DNA from: Elusimicrobiota bacterium
GTDB taxonomy: Bacteria > Elusimicrobiota > Elusimicrobia > UBA1565 > UBA9628
Direction: 5' to 3'
Assembly (NCBI GenBank): GCA_028717525.1
Contig: JAQUNT010000034.1
Span: 1 to 10,594, forward strand
Length of the DNA stretch: 10,594 bases
The notes under the pieces are model-generated. The model was given only the letters and a program-made list of their open reading frames with translations. It did not search any database and was not told the origin of the DNA. Made by a program: the position numbers and the translations under genes. Below are positions 1-10,594 of the stretch, in pieces; position 1 is the first letter of the stretch, and every line of letters starts with the position of its first letter.

Positions 1-875
1 CCTGGTGCCTCTTCGGCCTCGGCCCGGCGAAGGAAGTGGGCCGCGCCACCCTCCAGCGGACCTTGGACTTCGCGCGCGAGCGCGACGGCGCCGCGGACGG
101 CCGCCTCCAAGTCGCCTTGGGCCCGCATTCCCCCTACATGTGCCCGGACCGCTTCCTGCGCCAGGTCGTGGAGGCCGCGCACGAGCACAGACTCCCAATC
201 CACCTCCACCTCTCCGAGTCCGCGGAGCAAGTCTCCCGCTCCCAGGTCCTGCACGGGGAGACCCCCATCGCCCACCTCGACGGACTCGGGCTCTTCGACT
301 GCCCCCTGCCCACCATCGCCGCCCACTGCATAACCGCGGACGACCGCGACATCGCGATACTCGCCAGGAAGAAGGTTGTCGTGGCCCACACCCCCAAGAC
401 CTACATGAAGCTGGGCATGGGCATGGCTCCTCTGCAGAAGTTCCTGGACCGCGAGGTGCGTGTGGCCCTGGCCACGGACGGCCCGGCCTCCAACAACGAC
501 CTCGACATGCTCCAGGTCATGCGCCTGGCCGGCCTGTTCCAGAAGAACGAGCAGCGCAGGCCGGAAGCCCTGCCCCACGACCGGCTCCTCCGGCTGGCCG
601 CTTCCGGCCGGACCATCGCCCCGGGGTCAGCCGCGGACCTCGCCATCTTCGCCACCGACCAGGCCCACTGGGTCCCCCGCCACGACCTCGCGGCCTCGGT
701 GGTCTACTCCTCCCACCCCGGCGACGTCACCCACGTGATGTGCGACGGCCGCTGGCTCATGAAGGACCGGCAGCTGGTCACCCTCGACGAGGAGCGCATC
801 CTGCGCGAGGCCGAGAAGCGCGCCCTGCGTTTGGTCGGCGCGCCCATGCGGCTGGTGCGCCGCTACCGCGGTTAG
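1..875 (+). CDS. mtaD: Amidohydrolase, MTA/SAH deaminase-like (5' end outside window)
   Basis: This is the C-terminal part of a metal-dependent amidohydrolase. The reading frame is open from base 3 (WCLFGLG...) to TAG at 873-875, so the start lies upstream of the window. Signatures of the MTA/SAH deaminase (MtaD) group are a HLHLSES strand near base 200, a histidine in AAHC near base 325, and the block HTPKTYMKLGMG followed by ATDGPASNNDLDM, which carries the metal-binding Asp. Family members deaminate the adenine ring of methylthioadenosine, S-adenosylhomocysteine or 5'-deoxyadenosine in the cytoplasm, serving nucleoside salvage and the methyl cycle. The C-terminal small beta domain is present (APGSAADLAIF...VMCDGRWLMKD). 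About nine or ten residues seem to be missing between LRLAASG and RTIAPG compared with remembered relatives. The family is clear; the exact substrate is not, and another aminohydrolase of the same clan is possible. Confidence 0.85.
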   Translation, partial: WCLFGLGPAKEVGRATLQRTLDFARERDGAADGRLQVALGPHSPYMCPDRFLRQVVEAAHEHRLPIHLHLSESAEQVSRSQVLHGETPIAHLDGLGLFDCPLPTIAAHCITADDRDIAILARKKVVVAHTPKTYMKLGMGMAPLQKFLDREVRVALATDGPASNNDLDMLQVMRLAGLFQKNEQRRPEALPHDRLLRLAASGRTIAPGSAADLAIFATDQAHWVPRHDLAASVVYSSHPGDVTHVMCDGRWLMKDRQLVTLDEERILREAEKRALRLVGAPMRLVRRYRG

Positions 876-876
876 C

Positions 877-890
877 GGGCCAAAAGGCCC
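877..890 (+). terminator. Weak hairpin after the deaminase gene
   Basis: GGGCC-AAAA-GGCCC forms a 5-bp stem with a four-base loop, starting one base after the TAG of the deaminase gene. No T-run follows, so this would be a poor intrinsic terminator. It may only protect the 3' end or do nothing. Confidence 0.3.
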
Positions 891-904
891 ACCCGGCTTC
901 TAGG

Positions 905-932
905 TCGAAAGGCACCTTTTCTATGTTATAAT
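905..932 (+). promoter_or_regulatory. Sigma-70-type promoter for the clostripain gene
   Basis: A perfect TATAAT lies at 927-932 within a short AT-rich patch in GC-rich sequence. Sixteen bases upstream, TCGAAA (905-910) matches four of six positions of TTGACA. Transcription would start near 939 and give a leader of about 25 bases containing AGGGGG (954-959), five bases before the ATG. The -10 box is convincing; the -35 box is weak. Confidence 0.6.
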
Positions 933-964
933 CGGGACCAGGCCGCACCTGCTAGGGGGTTGCA

Positions 965-2296
965 ATGCTCAAGAGCTGTCTAGCCGCTTTCGCCGCCGTG
1001 CTGGTCTGCGCCGGCTCAGCCGCCGCGGACAAGATCGATTTCGACCAGGGCGTGGACGTCAAGGCCATCGTCCAGTCTCTCCAGGCCCAGCCCATGCAGG
1101 CCGCCCGGGCCCCCCAGGCCGGCGTGGCCGAGTGGACGGTCATGGTCTACGTCAACGCCAAGAACAACCTGGAGTCCTACGGCCTGACCGACGTCAACGA
1201 GATGGAGAAGGTCGGCTCCACGGACCAGGTCAAGATCGCGGTGGAGTTCGGCCGCATCAAGGGCTACAGCTCCGCGGACGGCAACTGGGTCGGCCAGCGC
1301 CGCTACATCGTGGCCAAGGACGCGGACATGTCCAAGATCGCCAGCCCGGTCCTGCAGGATATCCCCAAGGCCGACATGGGCGACTGGAAGCACCTGGTGG
1401 AGTTCGTGGCCTGGGCCAAGCAGAACGCCCCGGCCAAGCGCTACATGCTCGTGGTCTGGAACCACGGCAGCGGCTGGTCCAAGGCCCGGCGCAGCCAGGT
1501 CGTCATCAACGGCATCTCCTATGACGACGAGTCCGGCAACCACATGACCACCCAGGACATGGCCTCCGCCCTGGCCGGCATGGGCAAGGTCGAAGTTTAC
1601 GCCTCCGACGCCTGCCTCATGCAGATGGCCGAGATCGGCTACCAGATCCGGGACCACGCGGACTACGTGGTCGGCTCCGAGGAGACCGAGCCCGCAGACG
1701 GCTACACCTACGACACGCTGCTCGGGCCGCTCTCCGCCAAGCCCGCCATGTCCGCCGCGGAGCTGGCCAAGCTCACGGCCGACGCCTACACCGCGCACTA
1801 CGCCTCCATCAACCAGGGCGCCGCCCAGTCCGCGGTCAAGGCCTCGGCCCTGGCCAGGCTCCTGCCCATGCTCGGCGCCTGGACCGACGCGGTCATCGCG
1901 GCCAACGAGACCGCGGTGGTCAAGTCCGCGCGCAGCGCCGCGCAGAAGTTCTACTACAGCGACAACAAGGACCTCCTGCACTTCGTCCGGCTCGTGGACG
2001 CCGGCACCCAGAACCCCGTGGTCAAGGCCAAGGGCACCGAGCTCGAGCGCTTCCTCAAGGACGAGGTCATCAGCGCCAACGCCGTCACGGGCAGCAAGTA
2101 CAAGGACGCCTACGGCCTGGCGGTCTACATCCCCAGCGGCTACTACAACTCCGCCTACGACGGGCTGGCCTGGGCCAAGGACGGCTCCTACGCCAGGTTC
2201 GCCAAGTGGATCAAGGATATCAAGGAAGACCCCAGCAACGGCGGCGGCGACGACGAGGGCGGCTGGGACGACTATTACAAGCAGGCTTCCCGATAG
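965..2296 (+). CDS. Secreted clostripain-family (C11) cysteine peptidase
   Basis: This 443-residue protein is an exported cysteine protease of peptidase family C11. Residues 1-21 form a signal peptide: Lys3, a hydrophobic core, then AGSAAA before Asp22. Cys15 is not in a proper lipobox (valine at -1), so signal peptidase I is expected and the product should be periplasmic or secreted. The domain opens at about residue 56 (WTVMVYVNAKNNLE). The catalytic His is in WNHGSGW (His167) and the catalytic Cys in SDACLMQM (Cys217), an order and spacing typical of C11 enzymes. Clostripain itself cuts after arginine and needs calcium and self-processing; specificity here cannot be read. The C-terminus is a Gly/Asp-rich tail (GGGDDEGGWDDYY). 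The ATG at 965 follows the ribosome site AGGGGG. The gene has its own promoter and terminator, so it is probably a single-gene unit. Arginine codons are nearly all CGC or CGG. Confidence 0.9.
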   Translation: MLKSCLAAFAAVLVCAGSAAADKIDFDQGVDVKAIVQSLQAQPMQAARAPQAGVAEWTVMVYVNAKNNLESYGLTDVNEMEKVGSTDQVKIAVEFGRIKGYSSADGNWVGQRRYIVAKDADMSKIASPVLQDIPKADMGDWKHLVEFVAWAKQNAPAKRYMLVVWNHGSGWSKARRSQVVINGISYDDESGNHMTTQDMASALAGMGKVEVYASDACLMQMAEIGYQIRDHADYVVGSEETEPADGYTYDTLLGPLSAKPAMSAAELAKLTADAYTAHYASINQGAAQSAVKASALARLLPMLGAWTDAVIAANETAVVKSARSAAQKFYYSDNKDLLHFVRLVDAGTQNPVVKAKGTELERFLKDEVISANAVTGSKYKDAYGLAVYIPSGYYNSAYDGLAWAKDGSYARFAKWIKDIKEDPSNGGGDDEGGWDDYYKQASR

Positions 2297-2317
2297 CGCA
2301 CCCGTCGGCTGAACAGG

Positions 2318-2352
2318 CCCCCCGTCCCTCCGGGACGGGGGGTCGCGCTTTT
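2318..2352 (+). terminator. Intrinsic terminator after the clostripain gene
   Basis: There is a perfect 11-bp stem, CCCCCCGTCCC (2318-2328) pairing with its complement at 2332-2342, around a three-base loop. A short T-run (2349-2352) follows a few bases later. It lies 21 bases after the protease stop codon and separates it from the next promoter. Confidence 0.8.
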
Positions 2353-2363
2353 CCCCTTCCAGA

Positions 2364-2392
2364 TTGACAAGGCAGCGGGCATTACATATCTT
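2364..2392 (+). promoter_or_regulatory. Sigma-70-type promoter for the EF-Tu-like small gene
   Basis: A perfect TTGACA (2364-2369) is followed after 17 bases by TATCTT (2387-2392), which matches four of six -10 positions. Transcription would start near 2399. The resulting leader carries two purine-rich candidate ribosome sites, AAGGAG near 2403-2408 and GGAGG at 2413-2417, the latter four bases from the ATG. It sits directly behind the terminator of the preceding gene. Confidence 0.65.
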
Positions 2393-2421
2393 CTAGCTGA
2401 AAAAGGAGTTCCGGAGGCACC

Positions 2422-2676
2422 ATGGCAGAAAAAGAGATCGGCAAGATCACGCATTACTTCGCGCACGTCTCCGCGGGGGTCATCGCGCTGAGCGACACGC
2501 TCAAGACCGGCGACACCATCCACATCCGTGGCGCGCACGACGACATCACCCAGGTCGTGGACTCCATGCAGGTGGACCACAAGCCCGTGACCGAGGCCAA
2601 GCCCGGCGACCAGGTCGGGATCAAGGTCTCGGCCAAGGTCCATCCGCACGACAAGGTGTTCAAAGCAGTCCCATAA
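2422..2676 (+). CDS. Small EF-Tu domain II-like protein (translation factor-like)
   Basis: An 84-residue cytoplasmic protein resembling the second (beta-barrel) domain of translational GTPases. Typical features are GKITHYFAHVSAGVIAL, then DTLKTGDTIHIRG, then VDSMQVDHKPVTEAKPGDQVGIKV. In EF-Tu/IF2-type barrels the segment after 'L..GD.I...G' and the 'A..GD.VGI.V' strand have this pattern. There is no GTPase domain. Small proteins like this are usually annotated as elongation factor-like, and the same fold is found at the C-terminus of some U32-family peptidases/tRNA hydroxylation proteins. The role is unknown; RNA or protein binding is plausible. The ATG at 2422 has GGAGG four bases upstream and a strong promoter, suggesting high expression. 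It is followed by two tandem hairpins, so it is probably monocistronic. Confidence 0.8.
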   Translation: MAEKEIGKITHYFAHVSAGVIALSDTLKTGDTIHIRGAHDDITQVVDSMQVDHKPVTEAKPGDQVGIKVSAKVHPHDKVFKAVP

Positions 2677-2699
2677 CAGGACTCTCGCCGTAGAATGGC

Positions 2700-2755
2700 G
2701 GGGAGCCCTACGGGCTCCCCGCAACCGGCGCCCCCCTATGAGGGGGGCGCCGGTT
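2700..2755 (+). terminator. Two tandem perfect hairpins after the EF-Tu-like gene
   Basis: Hairpin one pairs GGGGAGCCC (2700-2708) with 2712-2720: nine base pairs, loop TAC. Two bases later hairpin two pairs AACCGGCGCCCCCC (2723-2736) with 2742-2755: fourteen perfect pairs, loop TATGA. No T-run follows either, so they are not textbook intrinsic terminators. They could still stop or pause polymerase, protect the upstream mRNA from 3' exonucleases, or belong to a dispersed palindromic repeat. They end just before the acyltransferase promoter. Confidence 0.6.
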
Positions 2756-2758
2756 CCG

Positions 2759-2787
2759 TTGGGGTGGCCATCCGAATTTGGCATAAT
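2759..2787 (+). promoter_or_regulatory. Candidate promoter for the acyltransferase-rubrerythrin unit
   Basis: CATAAT (2782-2787) matches five of six -10 positions, and TTGGGG (2759-2764) lies 17 bases upstream as a weak -35. The expected transcription start, six to eight bases after the -10, falls at 2793-2795, on or beside the GTG used as start codon. No Shine-Dalgarno sequence is visible before that codon, so the mRNA may be leaderless. Confidence 0.45.
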
Positions 2788-2793
2788 CCAATC

Positions 2794-3684
2794 GTGAATC
2801 CGCTCCTCTCCGGCCTCCTGCGCGCCATCCTCTTCTGCGCCGGCACGACCGTGAGCTTCCTGCCCAGGCCCGCGGAGGTCTCCTTGGGCCGCCTCTTGGG
2901 CCGCCTGCTCTACGCTTTGGACTGGAAGCGCAAGCGCATCGGCCGCGAGAACATGGCCCGCTGCCTGCCCGAGCTCCCGGCGACCGAGCGCGAGCGCCTG
3001 CTGGCGGAGAACTACCGCCACTACGGAATCCTCGCTCTGGAGCTCATTCACTATTTCTCCCCCTTCCCAGGCCATTACCCGGCCTATGTCCGGCGCGTCG
3101 TGGTCCTGGAAGGCTATGAACATTGGCGGAAAGCCAACGCCCGCGGCAAGGGCGTTATCTTCATCTCCGGACACTTCGCCAACTGGGAGCTGATGGTGGC
3201 CGTGGGGGGACTGCACGGCATCCCCCTGACCTTGGTGACCCGGCACTTGAAGCCCGAGTGGCTCCATCTGCAGATCGAGGCTGGGCGCCTCTCAATCGGC
3301 TGCCGGTGCGTCTATCAGCCCCGCACCTTGCCGACCATCCTGAAGGCCCTGCGCCAGGGGGAATCCCTGGGCATCGCCATGGACCAGTACATGCCCCCGC
3401 CCATGGGCAGCCCCACCCCTTTCTTCGGCACCCGGGTGGACACCTTGGCCGCGGTCGGCCCCCTGGCCGCGCGCACCGGAGCGGCCGTACTGTCCGCCAC
3501 CCAGAGGCGCGAGCCCGACGGCCGGGTGCGCGTCATCCTGTCGCCGGCTTTGGACCTGGGGCCGCTGCTCAAGGACCCGGCGGCGACCAACGCCCGGCTC
3601 GTGCGCGAGATCGAGAACATGATACGCGCCAACCCCTCTCAGTGGCTCTGGATCCACCGCCGCTTCAAGAACCTTGAACATTGA
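2794..3684 (+). CDS. LpxL/HtrB-family lipid A-type acyltransferase
   Basis: A 296-residue inner-membrane acyltransferase of the lysophospholipid acyltransferase superfamily, LpxL/HtrB branch, which adds secondary acyl chains to lipid A precursors. The HX4E catalytic motif is SGHFANWE (His127, Glu132). Further family blocks are RENMARCLPELP near residue 50, DQYMPPPMGSPTPFFG near 195, ARTGAAVL, and the C-terminal QWLWIHRRFK. An N-terminal hydrophobic stretch (LLSGLLRAILF) would anchor it in the membrane. I chose GTG 2794 because homologous sequence begins there; an in-frame ATG at 2695 would make the protein translate through both upstream hairpins, giving a proline/glycine-rich leader. GTG 2764 is an alternative. 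No ribosome site precedes 2794. Rubrerythrin follows after 19 bases, suggesting co-transcription. Lipid A work is the likeliest role, but the acceptor could be another lysolipid. Confidence 0.85.
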   Translation: MNPLLSGLLRAILFCAGTTVSFLPRPAEVSLGRLLGRLLYALDWKRKRIGRENMARCLPELPATERERLLAENYRHYGILALELIHYFSPFPGHYPAYVRRVVVLEGYEHWRKANARGKGVIFISGHFANWELMVAVGGLHGIPLTLVTRHLKPEWLHLQIEAGRLSIGCRCVYQPRTLPTILKALRQGESLGIAMDQYMPPPMGSPTPFFGTRVDTLAAVGPLAARTGAAVLSATQRREPDGRVRVILSPALDLGPLLKDPAATNARLVREIENMIRANPSQWLWIHRRFKNLEH

Positions 3685-3690
3685 AAACCC

Positions 3691-3696
3691 AGGAGG
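3691..3696 (+). promoter_or_regulatory. Ribosome binding site of rubrerythrin
   Basis: AGGAGG lies seven bases before ATG 3704. It settles the start: a TTG at 3674 opens the same frame ten codons earlier but overlaps the acyltransferase end and has no such site. Confidence 0.85.
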
Positions 3697-3703
3697 CTCG
3701 GAC

Positions 3704-4276
3704 ATGAAACTCAAAGGCAGCCAGACGGAGAAGAACCTCATCGCTTCGTTCGCGGGAGAGTCCCAGGCCCGCAACCGCTACACCTACGCCGCGGGCCAGG
3801 CGCGCAAGGACGGCTTCCAGCAGATCGCTTGGGCCTTCGAGGAGACCGCGGACCAGGAGAAGGAGCACGCCAAGCGCTTCTTCAGCCTGCTCGAGGGCGG
3901 CGAGGCCCAGGTGGCGGCCATGTTCCCGGCCGGCAAGACCGGCAGCACCGCGGAGAACCTCAAGGCCGCGGCGGAGGGCGAGGCCCATGAGTGGGGCGTG
4001 CTCTACCCGGAGTGCGCCAAGACGGCGCGCGCCGAAGGCTTCGAGGCCGCGGCCAAGCTCTTCGAGTTCATCGCGGTGGCGGAGAAGCAGCACGAGCGGC
4101 GCTACCGGGGCCTGCTGGCCAGCGTGGAGGCCGGGGAGGTCTTCAAGAAGAAGGCCAAGGTCAAGTGGCGCTGCCGCAACTGCGGCTACACCCATGAGGG
4201 AGAGGCCGCGCCGGCGGCCTGCCCGGCCTGCGCCCATCCCCAGGGCTATTTCGAGGTCGCGGCCGAGAACTGGTAG
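3704..4276 (+). CDS. rbr: Rubrerythrin
   Basis: A 190-residue rubrerythrin, a cytoplasmic non-haem diiron peroxidase that reduces hydrogen peroxide in anaerobes and microaerophiles. The four-helix ferritin-like domain carries all the expected iron ligands: Glu19 (GESQAR), Glu52 and His55 (QEKEHA), Glu93 and Glu96 (EGEAHEW), Glu127 and His130 (AEKQHE). The C-terminal rubredoxin-like domain has both Cys pairs, CRNCGY and CPACAHPQGYF, for one iron that passes electrons to the diiron site. The length is normal. All ten arginines use CGN codons, in contrast to the genes downstream on the other strand. It has a strong ribosome site but no separate promoter that I can see, so it probably shares the acyltransferase transcript. 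It meets the GAPDH gene tail to tail. Confidence 0.95.
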   Translation: MKLKGSQTEKNLIASFAGESQARNRYTYAAGQARKDGFQQIAWAFEETADQEKEHAKRFFSLLEGGEAQVAAMFPAGKTGSTAENLKAAAEGEAHEWGVLYPECAKTARAEGFEAAAKLFEFIAVAEKQHERRYRGLLASVEAGEVFKKKAKVKWRCRNCGYTHEGEAAPAACPACAHPQGYFEVAAENW

Positions 4277-4294
4277 GCCGGCCTCAGGCCTGAG
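4275..4294. repeat. Overlapping palindromes between convergent genes
   Basis: The 27-base gap between the two convergent stop codons contains AGGCCGGCCT (4275-4284) and CTCAGGCCTGAG (4283-4294), each its own reverse complement. A short hairpin GGCC-TCA-GGCC is also possible (4280-4290). This could act as a weak two-way transcription stop, but there is no T-run on either side and GC-rich palindromes arise easily here. Confidence 0.3.
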
Positions 4295-4303
4295 CCCCAG
4301 CGC

Positions 4304-5548
4304 CTATCCCATCGCCTTGTCGATATAGATCGTCAGCTCTCCCAGGCAGTTCGTGTAGCTCCCGTATTCGTTGTCATACCAGCCGAAGATCTTGGCGTGC
4401 GTGACCGGCAGCCTGAGCCCGTTCTGGGAAGTCATCTCATAGCGCTGGAGGAGCTCGGCGGGCAGTTCGATGAAGCCGGTCCTGGTATGCGTTTCGTGGC
4501 CCTCGATCACCACGGCGGCCCTGGTCCCCATGATGTCGGACGAGACATTCTGCCTCTTGCTGAAGAGCACGAGCCCCTTCTGCTGCCCCTCGGAGCAGGC
4601 GCGGTAGATGCCGTTGATCAGATCCTGATTGATCACGGGCTCGCCCTTCGCATTCAGGGGCGAGTGGAAGGTCACGTTCAGGTTGATGAGGGAGACGGTG
4701 TTGGTGGGGACGCGCACCGAGTCCGCCATGAAACCGATCCTCTTGATCGCCGGCAGCACGCTTTCCAGGGCCTGCGCGGCGCCCGTCGTCGAAAGGATGA
4801 TGTTGTTGAATGCCGCCCGCGTCTTCCTGAGATCCGCGGCCCCGCCCTTGGGCACCGAGTCGAGCACGCTCTGCGTGTTCGTGGCGGCGTGGATCGTCGA
4901 CATGGAGGCGGTGAGGATGCCGGAAGTCTCCCGCGTGTCGAGCAGCGGCTTCATCATGTGGGCGAGCCCCGTGGTGGTGCAAGAGGCCGCCGAGATGACG
5001 TGGTGCTTCCGCGGGTCAAAGGCCGTGTGGTTGATGCCGTAGATGAGCATCGTCGTGTCGTCCCCGGCCTTCTTCGACTTGTCCTTGATCTTGAACGGGG
5101 CGCTGTTGATGACCTTTTCCGCGCCAGCCTCCAGGTGGCCCCTGAGGCTCCCCTTCTTGTCATCACCGCCAGGGGCGACCGGGTCGGCGAACGTCCCCGT
5201 GGTCTCGACCACCAAGCGCACACCCTCCTTCCTCCAATTGACGTCTTTCGGGTTGCGGGCCTGCCTGAGGATCTTGACGGGACATCCGTCGACCTCGAAC
5301 AGCGCGGCCGCCGAATCGAGGATTTTGACGCTGCTCTCGCCCCGCGCCGCGACCCCGTGGAGGAACCCGCCCAGGGAACCATAGGTCGAATCGCTCTCCA
5401 GCACCTGAGCGATGTCGTCAAGGGTCTTGCCGACTTCGCGGCCCGTGTTGACCACGAAGCCCGAGAAGTGCCTTCTGGACAGATGATGCCACAAGGTCAG
5501 CTTGCCGATCCGGCCCAGCCCATTGATCCCCAAGTATTCCTTTGCCAT
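4304..5548 (-). CDS. Glyceraldehyde-3-phosphate dehydrogenase, long variant
   Basis: A 414-residue GAPDH-family enzyme, about 80 residues longer than the usual ~335. The family enzyme oxidises glyceraldehyde-3-phosphate to 1,3-bisphosphoglycerate with NAD(P). The Rossmann start is GINGLGRIGK (residues 7-16). The catalytic Cys is Cys190 in SAASCTTTGL (usual SNASCTTN), the partner His is His220 in STIHAATNTQ, followed by STTGAAQALESVLP, RVPTNTVSLINL and WYDNEYGS. Extra residues lie mainly before the Cys, such as PVAPGGDDKKGS and FKIKDKSKK. The Asp that normally binds the adenosine ribose of NAD (VNDL) is replaced: VVNTGREVG has Thr35. NADP or mixed cofactor use is therefore possible. It is the last gene of a minus-strand unit, starting 12 bases after the dikinase-like gene. 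A second GAPDH elsewhere in the genome, with this one specialised, is plausible. Confidence 0.88.
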   Translation of the reverse strand: MAKEYLGINGLGRIGKLTLWHHLSRRHFSGFVVNTGREVGKTLDDIAQVLESDSTYGSLGGFLHGVAARGESSVKILDSAAALFEVDGCPVKILRQARNPKDVNWRKEGVRLVVETTGTFADPVAPGGDDKKGSLRGHLEAGAEKVINSAPFKIKDKSKKAGDDTTMLIYGINHTAFDPRKHHVISAASCTTTGLAHMMKPLLDTRETSGILTASMSTIHAATNTQSVLDSVPKGGAADLRKTRAAFNNIILSTTGAAQALESVLPAIKRIGFMADSVRVPTNTVSLINLNVTFHSPLNAKGEPVINQDLINGIYRACSEGQQKGLVLFSKRQNVSSDIMGTRAAVVIEGHETHTRTGFIELPAELLQRYEMTSQNGLRLPVTHAKIFGWYDNEYGSYTNCLGELTIYIDKAMG

Positions 5549-5549
5549 A

Positions 5550-5558
5550 CCCCCCCCT
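5550..5558 (-). promoter_or_regulatory. Ribosome binding site made of an eight-G run
   Basis: Read on the minus strand, the 12-base gap between the dikinase-like stop and the GAPDH ATG is almost wholly AGGGGGGGG followed by T. The A+G tract serves as Shine-Dalgarno sequence and ends one base before the ATG, though pairing can use its upstream part. A homopolymer of eight is prone to length change. Confidence 0.6.
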
Positions 5559-5560
5559 GT

Positions 5561-8500
5561 TCAGGCCGGCTCCTCGATGGTGATCGAGAAGTTGCCTCTA
5601 TAGATGTTGCTCATGCAGCCGTCGATGGCGATCTTGTCGCCGAACTTGAATTCGGTCCCATGGATGGAGCACTGGGAGCTCTTCTCCCGGACCTTGAGCG
5701 CGACGCAGTTGACCACGCAGGTCTTCCCAAGGCGCACGGCCGTCACGGCGGCGTGCGACGTCACGCCGCCCCTGGCCGTCAGCAATCCGTCACAGGCGGC
5801 GATCATCTCGATGTCGTCCGGGACCGTGTCGGGCCGGATGAGGATCCGCTTCTCCCCGGGGTATTCCTGGGCGAGCCGGTCCAGATCGTCGCGGCTGAAA
5901 GCGACCCGGCCGTTCATGGCGCCGCCGCCGATCCCTATGCCGGACCCCACCAGATTCTCTTTCAGGGCCGGGTCGTTGAAGACCGCCTTCCGGGTCCGCT
6001 GGATGCTCTGGTCCCTGGTCTGGAGGATGTACAGGTCCCGGCCCCGGCTCGTCTCGAAGGTGAACTCCAGTTCCTGGTTGTTGTAGCCGTGCGTCTCCAC
6101 GAGTTCCCTCGCCCTGCTCAGGAGCGCGCCGTAGATCTCGGGGAAGTCCTTTTCCAGGGAGATGCCCTTATGGGACGGCGATCTCCCCCTCTGCGCCTCC
6201 GACACGGGCAGCGGATGGACCAGCCCTCCGACGACATCCTCCCCCTGGCTGCACATCGTGAAGTCGCCGTAGATCGCGACCCCCGGGCTCATGATATGAG
6301 GGTCCTTCGTGAACACGACTCCCGTGCCGGAATCATAGTTGATGTTCCCCAGGACCATCTGCTGGATGACGACGGCCGTCCCCCAGTCCTCCGCGATGGA
6401 GAGGTGCCGCCGGTAGGCGCGCGCCCGTTCCAGGTCCCACGAATCCAGGATGAAGGAGACCGCCTGTCTGAGCTGGCGGAAGGGGTCATCCTCGAAATGG
6501 ACGTCGTGGCCGTGGATGACCTTCTTGTAGGCGAAGGCGATCTCCCTCATCTGCTCGGGCTTGAACTGGACCTTCTCCCTCACATTATAGAGCCTTTTGT
6601 AGCGGATGATGACCTCGTCGAACTCGTCCCTGCTGATCCCGTGCGCCATCCCCCAGCTCTGCAGGAAGCGCCTATAGCAGTCCCAGGAGGTGAAGCCATA
6701 GTTGGGCTGCCTGCTCAAGGCCTCCACAATCGCGTCGTTCATGCCCACGTTGAGAAAGGTGTTCATGGCGCCCGGCAGGGAGATCGCCGCTCCGGAACGC
6801 ACGGAGAGCAGCAGGATGTTCTCCGGGTTCCCATACTCCCGGCCCGTCTTCCTCTCCAATTCCGCCAGGTGCGCCCGGATCTGCGCGTCCGCCTCCTTCT
6901 CAAGCTCGGGGAAGCTGCTCATGATGGGATGCAGCCGGAACAGCTCCGTGGAGATGATGAAGCCGTGCGGCACGGGGAAGCCGTAGGAGACCATCTTCTT
7001 AAGGAAGTATCCCTTGGCGCTCAGGAATATCTGATTGTCGACCTTCGGGGTCGCCCGGTCCAGCGCGCTGATCAGGTTCTCGGGGTTGTAGTTCATCACC
7101 GTCCGGATCGCGTCGGGAGGGAGCCTCTGGGCCATGTTGTCGAGGGCATGGAGCACCCGGCCCAGGAAATCGTCGAGCTGCTGGATGAGGAACGCCTGGG
7201 ACAGCATGTCCCTGTAGAACTCCTCGCTCCTCATGTCGACGAGCCGGGAGGCGGCTCGCGCGGACTCCTCGTCCGCCTTCGCCCCCGCCGTCCCGGCGCC
7301 CATCTGCTGGGAAAGGATCGTCGCGAGGCATCCCTCGTGATAGTCGAAGAAGTACTCGTTGATGATGTCGCGGACATTATGCGCGAGGAATTGGAACAGG
7401 TTGATGTACCGGTGGATCGAGAACGCCGAAGTCGTCAGGCTGTACTCGAGCATCTTGAGGTTCGACTTGAAGCCCTCATGCGAGATGCCGTCGATCTCCA
7501 GGCCCCTGCTGCAGAGGTGCAGGATCTCCGTCACCTTCCTGAGCGTCGACCGGCAGACGAAGTCCAGGTTGACGCCCCGCATCAGCTTTTCCATCTGGCG
7601 CGACGTCATGAGCTCGAGCCGGAAGAGGAGGCCCAGGGACTCGAACTTGGGCTCCCTGTAGGTGCCGTACATCGAAGGGATCCCAGCCGCTATGTGCCTC
7701 TTGTAGTAAATGTCCTCGTCGCCCTCGCATTTTTCCGGATCGAGGATCCTGTCCTTCAGCCTGGCCATCAGCCGCATGCAATGCTCGATGATCTCCTCAG
7801 GGTCTCCCTGGCGCAGGGCGCACCGGAAAGGCTCGATGCTCTCAGGCCCCAGGAAAGACGCTCGCTGCAGCTGCGGGAGGACCACGCCCGCGTCGAAGGT
7901 ATACTTCCCCTTCAGCAGTTCATAGAGCCGGATCAGGGACAAAAGCCGCTTCTTGTCGGGCCCGGACGCGCCCGGCTCCGCCATCACGCGCTTTTCGATC
8001 TGCGCGTAGTCTCCCTCGAGAAGCATCTCGGGCGTCGCCGCGAACGCGGCGCAGAGCCTCCGCATGAGCCCATGAACGCCGTCGTACCACTTGCCCGACG
8101 CCGTCAAGTCGCCTTTTACGTCCTCGGGGAGGCCCGGCGCGAGCCGCGCGACGCTGCCGTCGTACCAGTACCGCGCCGCGTGCCGGACGAGCTCCAGATG
8201 GGTGTTGTTGCTCTCGGCATGGATCTGCTTCCTTAAGAAATGAACCAGCGTATCCTCGCGCCGGGAGAGCTCGTCCATCTGCGTCGTTATGTCCCTGAGC
8301 TCCCCCTCCGCCCCGATCTCGTTGAAGTACACCGGGAATATCCGCGCCAGCTGCTTGACGAGCTCGAACACGGGTCTTATCTCCGAGTTGAGCAGGCGCG
8401 AAACATCCCTCTGGAACAGGTCCGTGTCCGAAATGAAGATGCCGCCGGTCTTCAGGTTGACGATCAAGGCCGAGATGAGCTTCACGCTCAGCGCCGTGTT

Positions 8501-9691
8501 CATGCCGATGAGCTCAAGCCAGACGCGGATGTTCTTGATGTGGCTGGGGTCGACCCGGACCTGCCATTCCTCGTCTATGCCTATGGGGCCCGGCGGGATG
8601 AAGCCCAGCCCGATGAGCTTGTCGATGAAATAGCCGATCTTGGCGCGGTCGTTGGTCGAGTATATCTCCCTGCCCAGCGCCAGCAGGCTGTCCAGCACGG
8701 TCGTCGCGTGGCCGGCCTTGAGCTTCCCCAGGATGGCAAAAATGTTGTCGATGAATCCGATGAGTTCCTTCTCCGGCGCCTCATGGGAGACGGTCCTGAT
8801 GGCCCTATTGAGGTCCCATAGCAGATGATCCCTCATATGGAGCATTCCGGGGACATTCAGGAGATGCAGGATATAGTAGATCCTGTCGAAGTTCGCATCG
8901 ATTCTCTCGATGTATTCCCTGAGTCTCCTGCAGATGCCGTTGAAATCGGTCACCCCGCAGAGCTCGTCCCAGGTTCTCGCGGAGGCCAGCGCCTGCCTCG
9001 ATTCGGCGAAGAAGCCGCACCCGATCTCGCCGGAGGCCGCGGAAAAGTCCCCATGGAGAAGCGCGCGATTCTCGTGAATCCAGGACTCGAGCCCTATCCC
9101 CTTCTCCCAAAAGTCAAGGTTGGCGGCGAGCGAAGCGCGCAGAAGTCTCGCCAGCCTGGGAGCCAGGGCTACATGCCTGGCCAGGGGGGATGCGATCGAT
9201 TTCAGAAGACCGGATGATTGCGAGAGAACCAGCGCGTTCCGCGGCAGGACATCCTCAAGGATGGCGACGCATTCCCTGACCGCATCCAGGGAAAGCGGGT
9301 CCCCGGTTTCCTCCTGCGGGGAGAGCAGAGAGACGGCGAATTCAAGGAACGTGGACAGGAGCCTGACCCGGGAAGCGTCATCGAGGCTGTCTTTGAACAG
9401 CGCGACAAAGACCTGGGTCAGTACGCTGACGGCGCGCTTGCCCTCAGCGCGGGACGAATAGAACCAGAGGTCATCGTAATAGAGCGTCCTGAGCAGAGCG
9501 ATGACTTCCTGCCTGTTCGAGTAGGGATGATTGAGCTCATTGAGAAGAGCCTCCGCTCTGCGATGCATCCCCAGATTGCCGGCAGAAAGGCCGAGGAACC
9601 ATCTCTGTTCATCCGGGACAACGATGGTCTTGTAGCGCGTCTTCGCCAGGTTGGCCTTCAGCGCCTCCGAATCGAATTCCGCGCCGGGCAT
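5561..9691 (-). CDS. PPDK-like dikinase lacking the PEP/pyruvate barrel, with giant unknown N-domain
   Basis: A 1376-residue protein. Residues ~885-1240 are the ATP-grasp domain of pyruvate phosphate dikinase/PEP synthase: SAKGYFLKKM (Lys893), VRSGAAISLPGAMNT (from 964), YDSGTGVVFTKDP, CSQGEDVVGG (Gln1149), QELEFTFE and LQTRD (Gln1224). A phospho-histidine swivel domain follows: PDTVPDDIEMI, then TARGGVTSHAAV with His1313. The protein ends 63 residues later, so the C-terminal PEP/pyruvate TIM barrel is absent. Residues 1-880 look helical and soluble, and I do not recognise them. By family logic ATP would phosphorylate His1313, but the final acceptor is unknown; the N-domain, a separate protein or a small molecule could serve. 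ATG 9691 follows GGAGGT by nine bases and abuts the TAG of the preceding gene, so translation is likely coupled. Many AGA/AGG arginine codons distinguish it from the left-hand genes. Confidence 0.85.
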   Translation of the reverse strand: MPGAEFDSEALKANLAKTRYKTIVVPDEQRWFLGLSAGNLGMHRRAEALLNELNHPYSNRQEVIALLRTLYYDDLWFYSSRAEGKRAVSVLTQVFVALFKDSLDDASRVRLLSTFLEFAVSLLSPQEETGDPLSLDAVRECVAILEDVLPRNALVLSQSSGLLKSIASPLARHVALAPRLARLLRASLAANLDFWEKGIGLESWIHENRALLHGDFSAASGEIGCGFFAESRQALASARTWDELCGVTDFNGICRRLREYIERIDANFDRIYYILHLLNVPGMLHMRDHLLWDLNRAIRTVSHEAPEKELIGFIDNIFAILGKLKAGHATTVLDSLLALGREIYSTNDRAKIGYFIDKLIGLGFIPPGPIGIDEEWQVRVDPSHIKNIRVWLELIGMNTALSVKLISALIVNLKTGGIFISDTDLFQRDVSRLLNSEIRPVFELVKQLARIFPVYFNEIGAEGELRDITTQMDELSRREDTLVHFLRKQIHAESNNTHLELVRHAARYWYDGSVARLAPGLPEDVKGDLTASGKWYDGVHGLMRRLCAAFAATPEMLLEGDYAQIEKRVMAEPGASGPDKKRLLSLIRLYELLKGKYTFDAGVVLPQLQRASFLGPESIEPFRCALRQGDPEEIIEHCMRLMARLKDRILDPEKCEGDEDIYYKRHIAAGIPSMYGTYREPKFESLGLLFRLELMTSRQMEKLMRGVNLDFVCRSTLRKVTEILHLCSRGLEIDGISHEGFKSNLKMLEYSLTTSAFSIHRYINLFQFLAHNVRDIINEYFFDYHEGCLATILSQQMGAGTAGAKADEESARAASRLVDMRSEEFYRDMLSQAFLIQQLDDFLGRVLHALDNMAQRLPPDAIRTVMNYNPENLISALDRATPKVDNQIFLSAKGYFLKKMVSYGFPVPHGFIISTELFRLHPIMSSFPELEKEADAQIRAHLAELERKTGREYGNPENILLLSVRSGAAISLPGAMNTFLNVGMNDAIVEALSRQPNYGFTSWDCYRRFLQSWGMAHGISRDEFDEVIIRYKRLYNVREKVQFKPEQMREIAFAYKKVIHGHDVHFEDDPFRQLRQAVSFILDSWDLERARAYRRHLSIAEDWGTAVVIQQMVLGNINYDSGTGVVFTKDPHIMSPGVAIYGDFTMCSQGEDVVGGLVHPLPVSEAQRGRSPSHKGISLEKDFPEIYGALLSRARELVETHGYNNQELEFTFETSRGRDLYILQTRDQSIQRTRKAVFNDPALKENLVGSGIGIGGGAMNGRVAFSRDDLDRLAQEYPGEKRILIRPDTVPDDIEMIAACDGLLTARGGVTSHAAVTAVRLGKTCVVNCVALKVREKSSQCSIHGTEFKFGDKIAIDGCMSNIYRGNFSITIEEPA

Positions 9692-10018
9692 CTATTGCCG
9701 ACCTCCAGAGCGGAACGGCCCAGAAGCCGTCCGCAAACCTTCCTCCGGGGAGGCAGTCCGCATGAATGGATGCGCGACCTGGAGCACGCGGAATATGCGG
9801 ACTCCCTGCCGCGATTCCACCCGGACGGAATCCCCCGCATGATGTCCCATCAGCGCCACCGCCAGGGGTGATCCCTGCGACACCTTGCCGGAGTCAGGGT
9901 CGGCAAGATGGTGCGGGACGATGGTGAACGCGCTCGTCTCGCCGCCGTTCACTTCCTGCACGGCGACACGGCACCAAACGCAGGCCCCATAGGCCTCAGG
10001 ACCGAAGCCCGGCATCAT
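9692..10018 (-). CDS. GreA/GreB C-terminal-domain-only protein (Rnk-like)
   Basis: A 108-residue protein matching the FKBP-like C-terminal domain of transcript cleavage factors GreA/GreB: VQEVNGGETSAFTIV, then ADPDSGKVSQGSPLAVALMGHHAGDSVRVES, then GVRIFRVLQV. The N-terminal coiled coil that reaches into the RNA polymerase channel is absent, so transcript cleavage is not expected. Rnk and other short Gre-type proteins have a similar domain on polymerase or a partner. A Ser/Arg/Gly-rich tail of about 25 residues follows the domain. I chose ATG 10018 because GGGAGGT lies seven bases upstream; ATG 10075 would add 19 unrelated residues and sits at the predicted transcription start, and a second ATG at 10015 is adjacent. 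Its TAG touches the ATG of the dikinase-like gene, implying a shared transcript and coupled translation. Confidence 0.75.
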   Translation of the reverse strand: MMPGFGPEAYGACVWCRVAVQEVNGGETSAFTIVPHHLADPDSGKVSQGSPLAVALMGHHAGDSVRVESRQGVRIFRVLQVAHPFMRTASPEEGLRTASGPFRSGGRQ

Positions 10019-10025
10019 GGCTGAC

Positions 10026-10032
10026 ACCTCCC
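10026..10032 (-). promoter_or_regulatory. Ribosome binding site of the Gre-domain gene
   Basis: GGGAGGT on the minus strand lies seven bases before ATG 10018. It favours this start over the upstream in-frame ATG at 10075, which lacks one. Confidence 0.75.
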
Positions 10033-10060
10033 GCTCGCCGCGACTCCAGCGGTCTACGGC

Positions 10061-10072
10061 TGCGATATCGCA
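10061..10072. promoter_or_regulatory. Perfect 12-base palindrome, possible operator
   Basis: TGCGATATCGCA equals its own reverse complement. It lies about 4-15 bases downstream of the predicted transcription start of the Gre-domain/dikinase/GAPDH unit, where a bound repressor would block initiation or clearance. Operator function is inference from position and symmetry. Confidence 0.35.
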
Positions 10073-10082
10073 CATTCAAGTG

Positions 10083-10111
10083 ATTGTACGCTCGCGGCTT
10101 CTCTTTGCTAA
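10083..10111 (-). promoter_or_regulatory. Promoter for the Gre-domain/dikinase/GAPDH unit
   Basis: On the minus strand TTAGCA (10106-10111) and TACAAT (10083-10088) are separated by 17 bases. They match four of six and five of six consensus positions. Transcription would start near 10076, leaving a leader of about 58 bases before ATG 10018. A 6-bp inverted repeat, TTCTCT/AGAGAA (10099-10104 and 10114-10119), brackets the -35 box and might bind a regulator. Between 10112 and the mreB stop no other clear signal was seen. Confidence 0.55.
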
Positions 10112-10164
10112 TCAGAGAAAGACCGATGGCGCGGGATTGTATTGTAGGATTTTTGGCCGGTGAT

Positions 10165-10594
10165 TTACGGCCGCGAATCGAACAGCGGGTATCGCGCGAC
10201 AGGATCAACCCCGCCGCGAAGACGATCCAGTTCTTCAAGGAACTTCCCCGCACCGGAGGCCACGCAGCCCAACGGATCGGCGGCGACGCTCACGGGCATC
10301 TCCGTTTCTTGCCGGATGATGTCAGGCAAGCCTCTCAATAGGCTTCCGCCGCCCGCCAGAACCATACCGCGGTCAACCAAATCGGCCGAAAGCTGTGCGG
10401 GCGTTCCTTCCAAGGTTTCCCTAATCATGTCGATGATGAGCCGCACGGGCTCCATAAGGGCCTGTCGCACTTCTTCAGAAGTGATCAGCACCGTCTTGGG
10501 CAGCCCCGTGGCCTGATCCCGTCCGCGCACTTCCAGCGTTTTCTCCTCACGCATCGGGGAAACGGAGCCGATCTGGATCTTGACTTCCTCCGCC
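10165..10594 (-). CDS. mreB: Rod-shape protein MreB, C-terminal part (5' end outside window)
   Basis: The last ~142 residues of the actin-like cell-shape protein MreB, which polymerises under the inner membrane and guides peptidoglycan synthesis in rod-shaped cells. The frame is open to the window edge (AEEVKIQIGSVSP before Met) and ends with TAA at 10165-10167. Diagnostic stretches are EVRGRDQATGLPKTVLITSEEV, the nucleotide-binding loop DRGMVLAGGGSLLRGLPDII, and ADPLGCVASGAGKFLEELD. These are characteristic of MreB rather than FtsA or DnaK. The C-terminal extension GGVDPVARYPLFDSRP is short. In many bacteria mreC and mreD follow mreB; here the next genes on the same strand are the Gre-domain, dikinase-like and GAPDH genes, so an mre cluster does not continue on this side. 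Confidence 0.92.
   Translation of the reverse strand, partial: AEEVKIQIGSVSPMREEKTLEVRGRDQATGLPKTVLITSEEVRQALMEPVRLIIDMIRETLEGTPAQLSADLVDRGMVLAGGGSLLRGLPDIIRQETEMPVSVAADPLGCVASGAGKFLEELDRLRGGVDPVARYPLFDSRP

Follow-up and report, generated by a model that had tools for sequence, protein, structure and literature searches.

Dikinases of the PPDK (pyruvate phosphate dikinase) type with exchanged acceptor domains are already known. In rifampicin phosphotransferase (RPH) and in the two-component aromatic dikinases HpeHI, CreHI and PpsAB, the phosphoenolpyruvate (PEP)/pyruvate barrel is replaced by another acceptor domain (PMC4844700, PMC12167813). Here we describe a further member of this type, named PPDKL, which is encoded on the minus strand (5561..9691) of a 10,594-nucleotide stretch assigned to an Elusimicrobiota bacterium (contig JAQUNT010000034.1, our G000 contig C34, positions 1-10594; "the window" below). 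PPDKL is a 1376-residue protein delimited by its open reading frame (ORF), Pfam and NCBIfam matches and alignment with PPDK (PDB 1kbl). Its domain order is acceptor, ATP-grasp and phospho-His, whereas the RPH-type order is ATP-grasp, acceptor and His, or two chains. It differs from PPDK in the missing barrel, in about 880 extra N-terminal residues and in its partner, a paralogue of glyceraldehyde-3-phosphate dehydrogenase (GAPDH) that we call GapX. We consider it probable that PPDKL forms a dikinase branch of its own, new to date, whose action is tied with that of GapX to the node of GAPDH and phosphoglycerate kinase (PGK). More specifically, PPDKL may carry a new acceptor domain and exchange phosphate with 1,3-bisphosphoglycerate (1,3-BPG)/3-phosphoglycerate (3-PG) for the dedicated GapX; from the sequences we give this reading a probability of roughly 0.38.

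The catalytic half of PPDKL resembles PPDK in its ATP-grasp domain (residues 888-1237; 5981..7030, minus strand), its swivelling phospho-His domain (residues 1246-1368; 5588..5956, minus) and its catalytic residues, and is about 32-41% identical there to PPDK-size frames. Both domains were delimited by Pfam, NCBIfam and the alignment to 1kbl, the closest solved relative (E 1e-77, best stretch 889-1228). Pfam scored PPDK_N at 88.3 bits (cut-off 27; best stretch 932-1160) and the PEP-utilizers His domain at 55.2 bits (cut-off 23.1; residues 1280-1347), and gave no match of the barrel family PF02896 in PPDKL. Lys893, Arg965 (in VRSGA), Glu1207/Glu1209, Gln1224/Arg1226 (in LQTR) and His1313 align with the catalytic residues of PPDK, which we take to be Lys22, Arg92, Asp321/Glu323, Gln335/Arg337 and His455; Glu thus stands at the position of Asp321. 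When 86 sequences including the window are aligned, conservation reaches at least 97% at each of the seven positions, among them the predicted phospho-acceptor His1313 (codon 5753..5755, minus), and the His domain carries the GG.TSHAA feature of PPDK members. The chain ends 63 residues past His1313 (1376-1313), and its start codon is backed by the N-termini of homologues and by GGAGGT upstream of the ATG. PPDKL thus has, as judged by alignment, intact ATP-grasp and His domains and no barrel, and the first-pass annotation, which had proposed intact catalytic domains, a stop 63 residues after the histidine and a missing barrel, was right on all of these. Among NCBIfam models, TIGR01828 (PPDK) gave 364.9 bits in two stretches, under its curated cut-off of 843, TIGR01418 (PEP synthase) gave 58.2 bits against a cut-off of 739.75, and NF041857 (rifamycin phosphotransferase) gave 21 bits against 999, with its best stretch (1077-1160) inside the ATP-grasp. 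Since the PPDK model reaches 365 bits and the best two PEP-synthase models 64 and 58, PPDKL probably follows the Pi-type (inorganic phosphate) chemistry of PPDK.

Residues 1-880 matched nothing in Pfam up to E 1 and nothing in NCBIfam, in line with the earlier statement that they hold no recognised domain. With an intact catalytic half, no barrel and no match in this part, the N-terminal residues are best read as carrying a new acceptor domain, as the first-pass annotation had suggested, though they are not one region. The AlphaFold2 (AF2) model of residues 1-886 (pLDDT 86.3, pTM 0.78) consists of helices and one hairpin, and comprises a probable alpha-solenoid of HEAT/karyopherin-like arrangement (residues 19-460; 8312..9637, minus), which resembles alpha-solenoids generally, and a helical domain with one beta hairpin (residues 364-886; 7034..8602, minus), whose start overlaps the solenoid and which is the proposed acceptor domain. 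This domain refolded alone with pLDDT 89.3 and pTM 0.86, and a Foldseek comparison of this model with PDB folds, a check proposed by the first annotation, gave no significant match (best E 0.07). Positions at least 97% conserved in the N-terminal part (same alignment) concentrate at 415-498 and 658-691: they number 12 in residues 401-440, 15 in 441-480, 8 in 481-520 and 16 in 641-680, against 10 to 15 in the densest 40-residue windows of the catalytic domains. The former region (residues 415-498; 8198..8449, minus) holds the invariant motifs DTDLFQRD ... GAEGELR ... DE..R.D ... LRKQ.H.ESNN, and the hairpin (residues 658-682; 7646..7720, minus) has the strongly conserved loop YYKRHIAAGIPSMYG.Y.E.K. 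Asp, Glu, Lys, Arg and His make up 20 of the 49 invariant residues of these two motif regions. In the model of 1-886, confidence is particularly low at the hairpin loop 664-672, as could be expected of a mobile active-site loop.

This architecture is not a chance product: several phyla have the full-length form, at about 31-50% identity. Of 7993 candidates scored in a search with residues 1-880, 2770 proteins matched at E <= 1e-3. Among the 120 matches listed, all except P0034 and P0073 carry both Pfam domains of PPDKL, none carries the barrel, lengths are mostly near 1360 residues, and the names given by the sources are mostly PPDK, ppdk2 or PEP/pyruvate-binding protein; they come from Geobacteraceae, Clostridia, Deltaproteobacteria and others. 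Moreover, the 24 loci fetched from GTDB include CSSED10-310, Acidobacteria, Cloacimonetes, Holophagae, Sumerlaeota, rumen bacteria and Geobacteraceae. On these sequence matches, the PPDKL family is widespread and not rare.

GapX (414 residues; 4304..5548, minus; Pfam/NCBIfam and alignment) starts 12 bases after the PPDKL stop and is preceded by a G-rich stretch. It shares both GAPDH Pfam domains (Gp_dh_N and Gp_dh_C, above cut-off) and the catalytic Cys-His pair with type I and NADP-preferring anabolic GAPDHs, and has equivalents of Cys149, His176 and Arg231. On the other hand, it is longer than E. coli GapA (331 residues) and scores 304.4 bits with TIGR01534 (GAPDH type I), under the curated cut-off of 367.2. 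We aligned 126 GapX sequences (120 from the sequence search, mostly best matches and including the window, and six from the loci). The catalytic Cys and His, the Ser/Thr residues of the phosphate site and the Arg equivalent to Arg231 are kept in all 126, while the acidic residue of NAD enzymes (Asp32) is present in none, and N-x-G-R stands there in all. Loss of this Asp with a following Arg points to NADP(H) in GAPDHs. Because the catalytic residues are kept, Asp32 is lost and N-x-G-R is invariant, GapX should be an active, probably NADP-linked GAPDH.

To evaluate the pairing of the two genes, PPDKL and GapX were each used as query against 198 genomes from the phylum to which G212 belongs (GapX threshold E <= 1e-50). 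PPDKL was found in 51 and GapX in 52; 50 had both and 145 neither (Fisher p 2.6e-43, kinship ignored). The exceptions are G325, with PPDKL only (a 1144-residue open frame), and G217 and G290, with GapX only, the match of G217 sitting in a 262-residue frame. When GapX within 3.5 kb past the PPDKL N-terminal match is counted as adjacent, the genes are adjacent in 39 of the 50 (33 on the same strand, of which that of G278 rests on a 169-residue piece, and 6 convergent) and apart in 11. In the GTDB loci, GapX lies directly downstream of PPDKL in 9 of 24; in L005 and L027 the GapX start and the PPDKL stop overlap by longest-ORF calls, whose starts are putative. Of the 15 genomes behind 15 of these loci, 14 contained GapX (57-69% identity), the exception being G208. 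In five of the 14 it is located apart from PPDKL, and in every one of them a further GAPDH of lower similarity was matched. The distance matrices of PPDKL and GapX correlated at 0.94 over 11 pairs, a value reached by none of 10,000 permutations, with no third gene as control. It is evident that the pairing is near-perfect and adjacency frequent. Among other neighbours, only the PPDKL and GapX ORF clusters were common to more than 5 of 17 loci, uptake and sugar genes not being searched by name.

Other genes also link PPDK modules to the GAPDH/PGK node. In 6 of 20 loci of the phylum of G212, the gene immediately before PPDKL, in the same orientation, is an ordinary GapA/Epd-like ORF; L080, L083, L086 and L088 are truncated where the fetched sequence stops. 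In G313, G407 and G226, out of 26 genomes searched, no more than about 0.6 kb separates GapX from a PGK gene in the same orientation. Moreover, in three class-mates of the window's bin (L093, L094 and L095, from G114, G086 and G168; 3 of 198 genomes of the window's phylum), an ATP-grasp/His module is fused to a complete PGK in frames of 1421-1438 residues. A Pfam scan of two of the three found the PGK domain in both, and PPDK ATP-grasp, His and PGK domains stand together in 40 of 120 homologues listed. These fusions (Elusimicrobiales and others; P0242-P0281, L093-L095) share with PPDKL the order of N-terminal extension, ATP-grasp and His, and the metabolic node, and differ in an N-terminal extension of about 480 residues without detectable homology, in the C-terminal PGK and in the lack of GapX in the three genomes checked. 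Only two short motifs are common to both kinds of N-terminus. Thus, as far as sequences tell, there are two distinct kinds of connection between PPDK modules and the GAPDH/PGK steps. PMC7729029 mentions fusions of PGK with other partners (PGK-TIM) and PGKs that have acquired extra domains. The first-pass annotation had missed the main clue, the adjacent, co-occurring GAPDH paralogue, and also the PGK fusions. As separate observations, the GapX-PGK pair occurs twice in contig C1 of G313, with identical scores and about 1.27 Mb apart. A lower-scoring PGK lies in a frame of 432-441 residues in G201, G202, G203, G204, G208 and G209; an ordinary PGK is present elsewhere besides it in G201, G202, G203 and G209, and G206 has a PGK of 365 residues.

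Because these genetic links point to metabolites common to GAPDH and PGK, 1,3-BPG/3-PG is the candidate acceptor; the node itself is well supported by the gene associations. ATP, probably with Pi, would phosphorylate His1313, yielding AMP and pyrophosphate (PPi). The His domain would then swivel to residues ~364-886, where, by analogy with PPDK and RPH (PMC4844700, PMC12167813), it should deliver its phosphate, in this case to the carboxylate of 3-PG, giving 1,3-BPG. GapX, probably with NADPH, would reduce this to glyceraldehyde-3-phosphate, and the putative solenoid (19-460) may hold GapX or orient the swivel. Cells would thereby gain a second, one-way path for gluconeogenesis in parallel to their ordinary PGK and GAPDH. 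The reverse direction, in which 1,3-BPG, AMP and PPi would give 3-PG, ATP and Pi, is equally allowed by the data.

Several points weigh against this assignment. The activity and acceptor of PPDKL are predictions, and so are the use of NADP by GapX and the direction of the reaction. The co-occurrence statistic takes no account of phylogeny, and the test phylum was picked because one of its members holds the PPDKL family. PGK was found in 25 of 26 genomes checked, and because it is nearly always present the proposed step would duplicate an existing one. In the fusions this duplication would even occur inside a single polypeptide, and G114, G086 and G168 have a second, ordinary PGK besides. Furthermore, a comparison of the new domain with the fusion N-terminus (38 fusion sequences given) detected no homology (hhalign 0.9%), so PPDKL and the fusions may differ in acceptor. 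The redundancy would disappear if PPDKL phosphorylated another small molecule feeding the same node, such as glycerate, giving a phosphoglycerate, or glyceraldehyde or dihydroxyacetone, giving a triose phosphate, and PGK and GapX then processed the product. This would fit the PGK fusions, pgk beside GapX and gapA upstream, and known barrel-less dikinases do act on small hydroxyl compounds (PMC4844700, PMC12167813). It leaves unexplained, however, why the kept partner is GapX and not an ordinary GAPDH, and the 17 loci offered no further conserved neighbour within the limits of the search given above. We regard this explanation as rather unlikely.

The putative HEAT-like solenoid, which suits a protein partner, and the strict co-occurrence with a single protein would also fit if PPDKL had a regulatory and not a metabolic role: it would sense energy charge and, as a protein phosphotransferase or a scaffold, phosphorylate GapX or sequester it. 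However, conservation in the two motif regions of 364-886 equals that of the catalytic domains, and with their many charged residues these regions are active-site-like; among the 50 pairs, 6 are convergent and 11 non-adjacent; and the sister type has the module fused to PGK instead, all of which make a regulator unlikely. Very improbable is ordinary PPDK/PEP-synthase chemistry via a separately encoded barrel, or a decayed PPDK, even though source names are often PPDK and most genomes searched also hold a PPDK- or PEP-synthase-size frame with barrel. Catalytic residues at least 97% conserved contrast with decay, and the TIGR01828 score of 365 bits lies far from its cut-off of 843. A separate barrel partner had been named beforehand as the finding that would speak against the proposal, and PF02896 was searched in 25 genomes. 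Its matches lie mostly in frames of PPDK/PEP-synthase size or of the size of enzyme I of the phosphotransferase system (PTS), and it was absent from two PPDKL genomes, G199 and G226, the latter a genome of 2.8 Mb with the GapX-PPDKL pair and with matches reaching 2.73 Mb on one contig. In G201, a 414-residue barrel frame directly overlaps the preceding frame, which has PPDK ATP-grasp and His domains, at its end, so both belong to a single PPDK gene interrupted by a frame change; a 347-residue piece in G205 starts less than 150 bases from a contig end, and a few smaller pieces remain besides. The ordinary PPDK of G201 stands as two overlapping frames at L118:1155-3978 (contig C4), the frame change being one of the gene or of the assembly. 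The probability left after these four readings belongs to something we have not thought of.

The true host of the window contig is uncertain. The MreB it encodes shares about 80% identity with the MreB of genus-mates, whereas the two genus-mates compared share 98%. PPDKL and GapX were not seen elsewhere in the sample of the window's phylum, where the bin is the single genome out of 198 with GapX. A search with the whole PPDKL sequence gave a match in 148 of the 198, and in no genome other than the bin was the best match better than E 2.9e-77, a PPDK-type match over residues 889-1366. Because of the MreB divergence and this absence, the contig is probably mis-binned, although base composition does not set it apart from the bin. 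A second MreB piece of the bin (C272) is 61-76% identical to a genus-mate, and the bin may be mixed. Since the host is uncertain, the bin's own PPDK says little about it. Upstream of PPDKL, a 127-residue protein with a GreA/GreB C-terminal domain (9692..10075, minus; Pfam) has a stop that abuts the PPDKL ATG (TAGATG), and both genes are probably on the same transcript; this protein had no match in the 24 GTDB loci. The window also encodes a free-standing 84-residue protein matching EF-Tu domain 2 (2422-2676; Pfam, 31.6 bits, barely above its cut-off, 30.3) and a Clostripain-family (C11) peptidase (965-2296; Pfam).

Full-text literature searches, with subscription journals mostly outside their scope, returned nothing on PPDKL, a PPDK-PGK fusion or a bacterial phosphoglycerate dikinase, and none of the three is mentioned in the available portions of PMC7729029, PMC12167813, PMC4844700 and PMC7894505. 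As far as this search reached, the acceptor domain, the domain order and the GAPDH/PGK link are undescribed. At least 2770 proteins match this family and, where named, are often called PPDK without having the pyruvate site of PPDK, so metabolic models of PEP, pyruvate and pyrophosphate can be misled. It is doubtful, though conceivable, that many anaerobes have an AMP/PPi-linked 3-PG (1,3-BPG) dikinase with a dedicated, probably NADP-linked GAPDH that bypasses or doubles PGK, with a PGK-fused version in parallel. The nearly constant travel of PPDKL with GapX suggests an unrecognised phosphate-transfer step in central metabolism. If the acceptor is indeed 1,3-BPG/3-PG, this would be an AMP/PPi-linked variant of glycolysis or gluconeogenesis at the main energy-conserving step.

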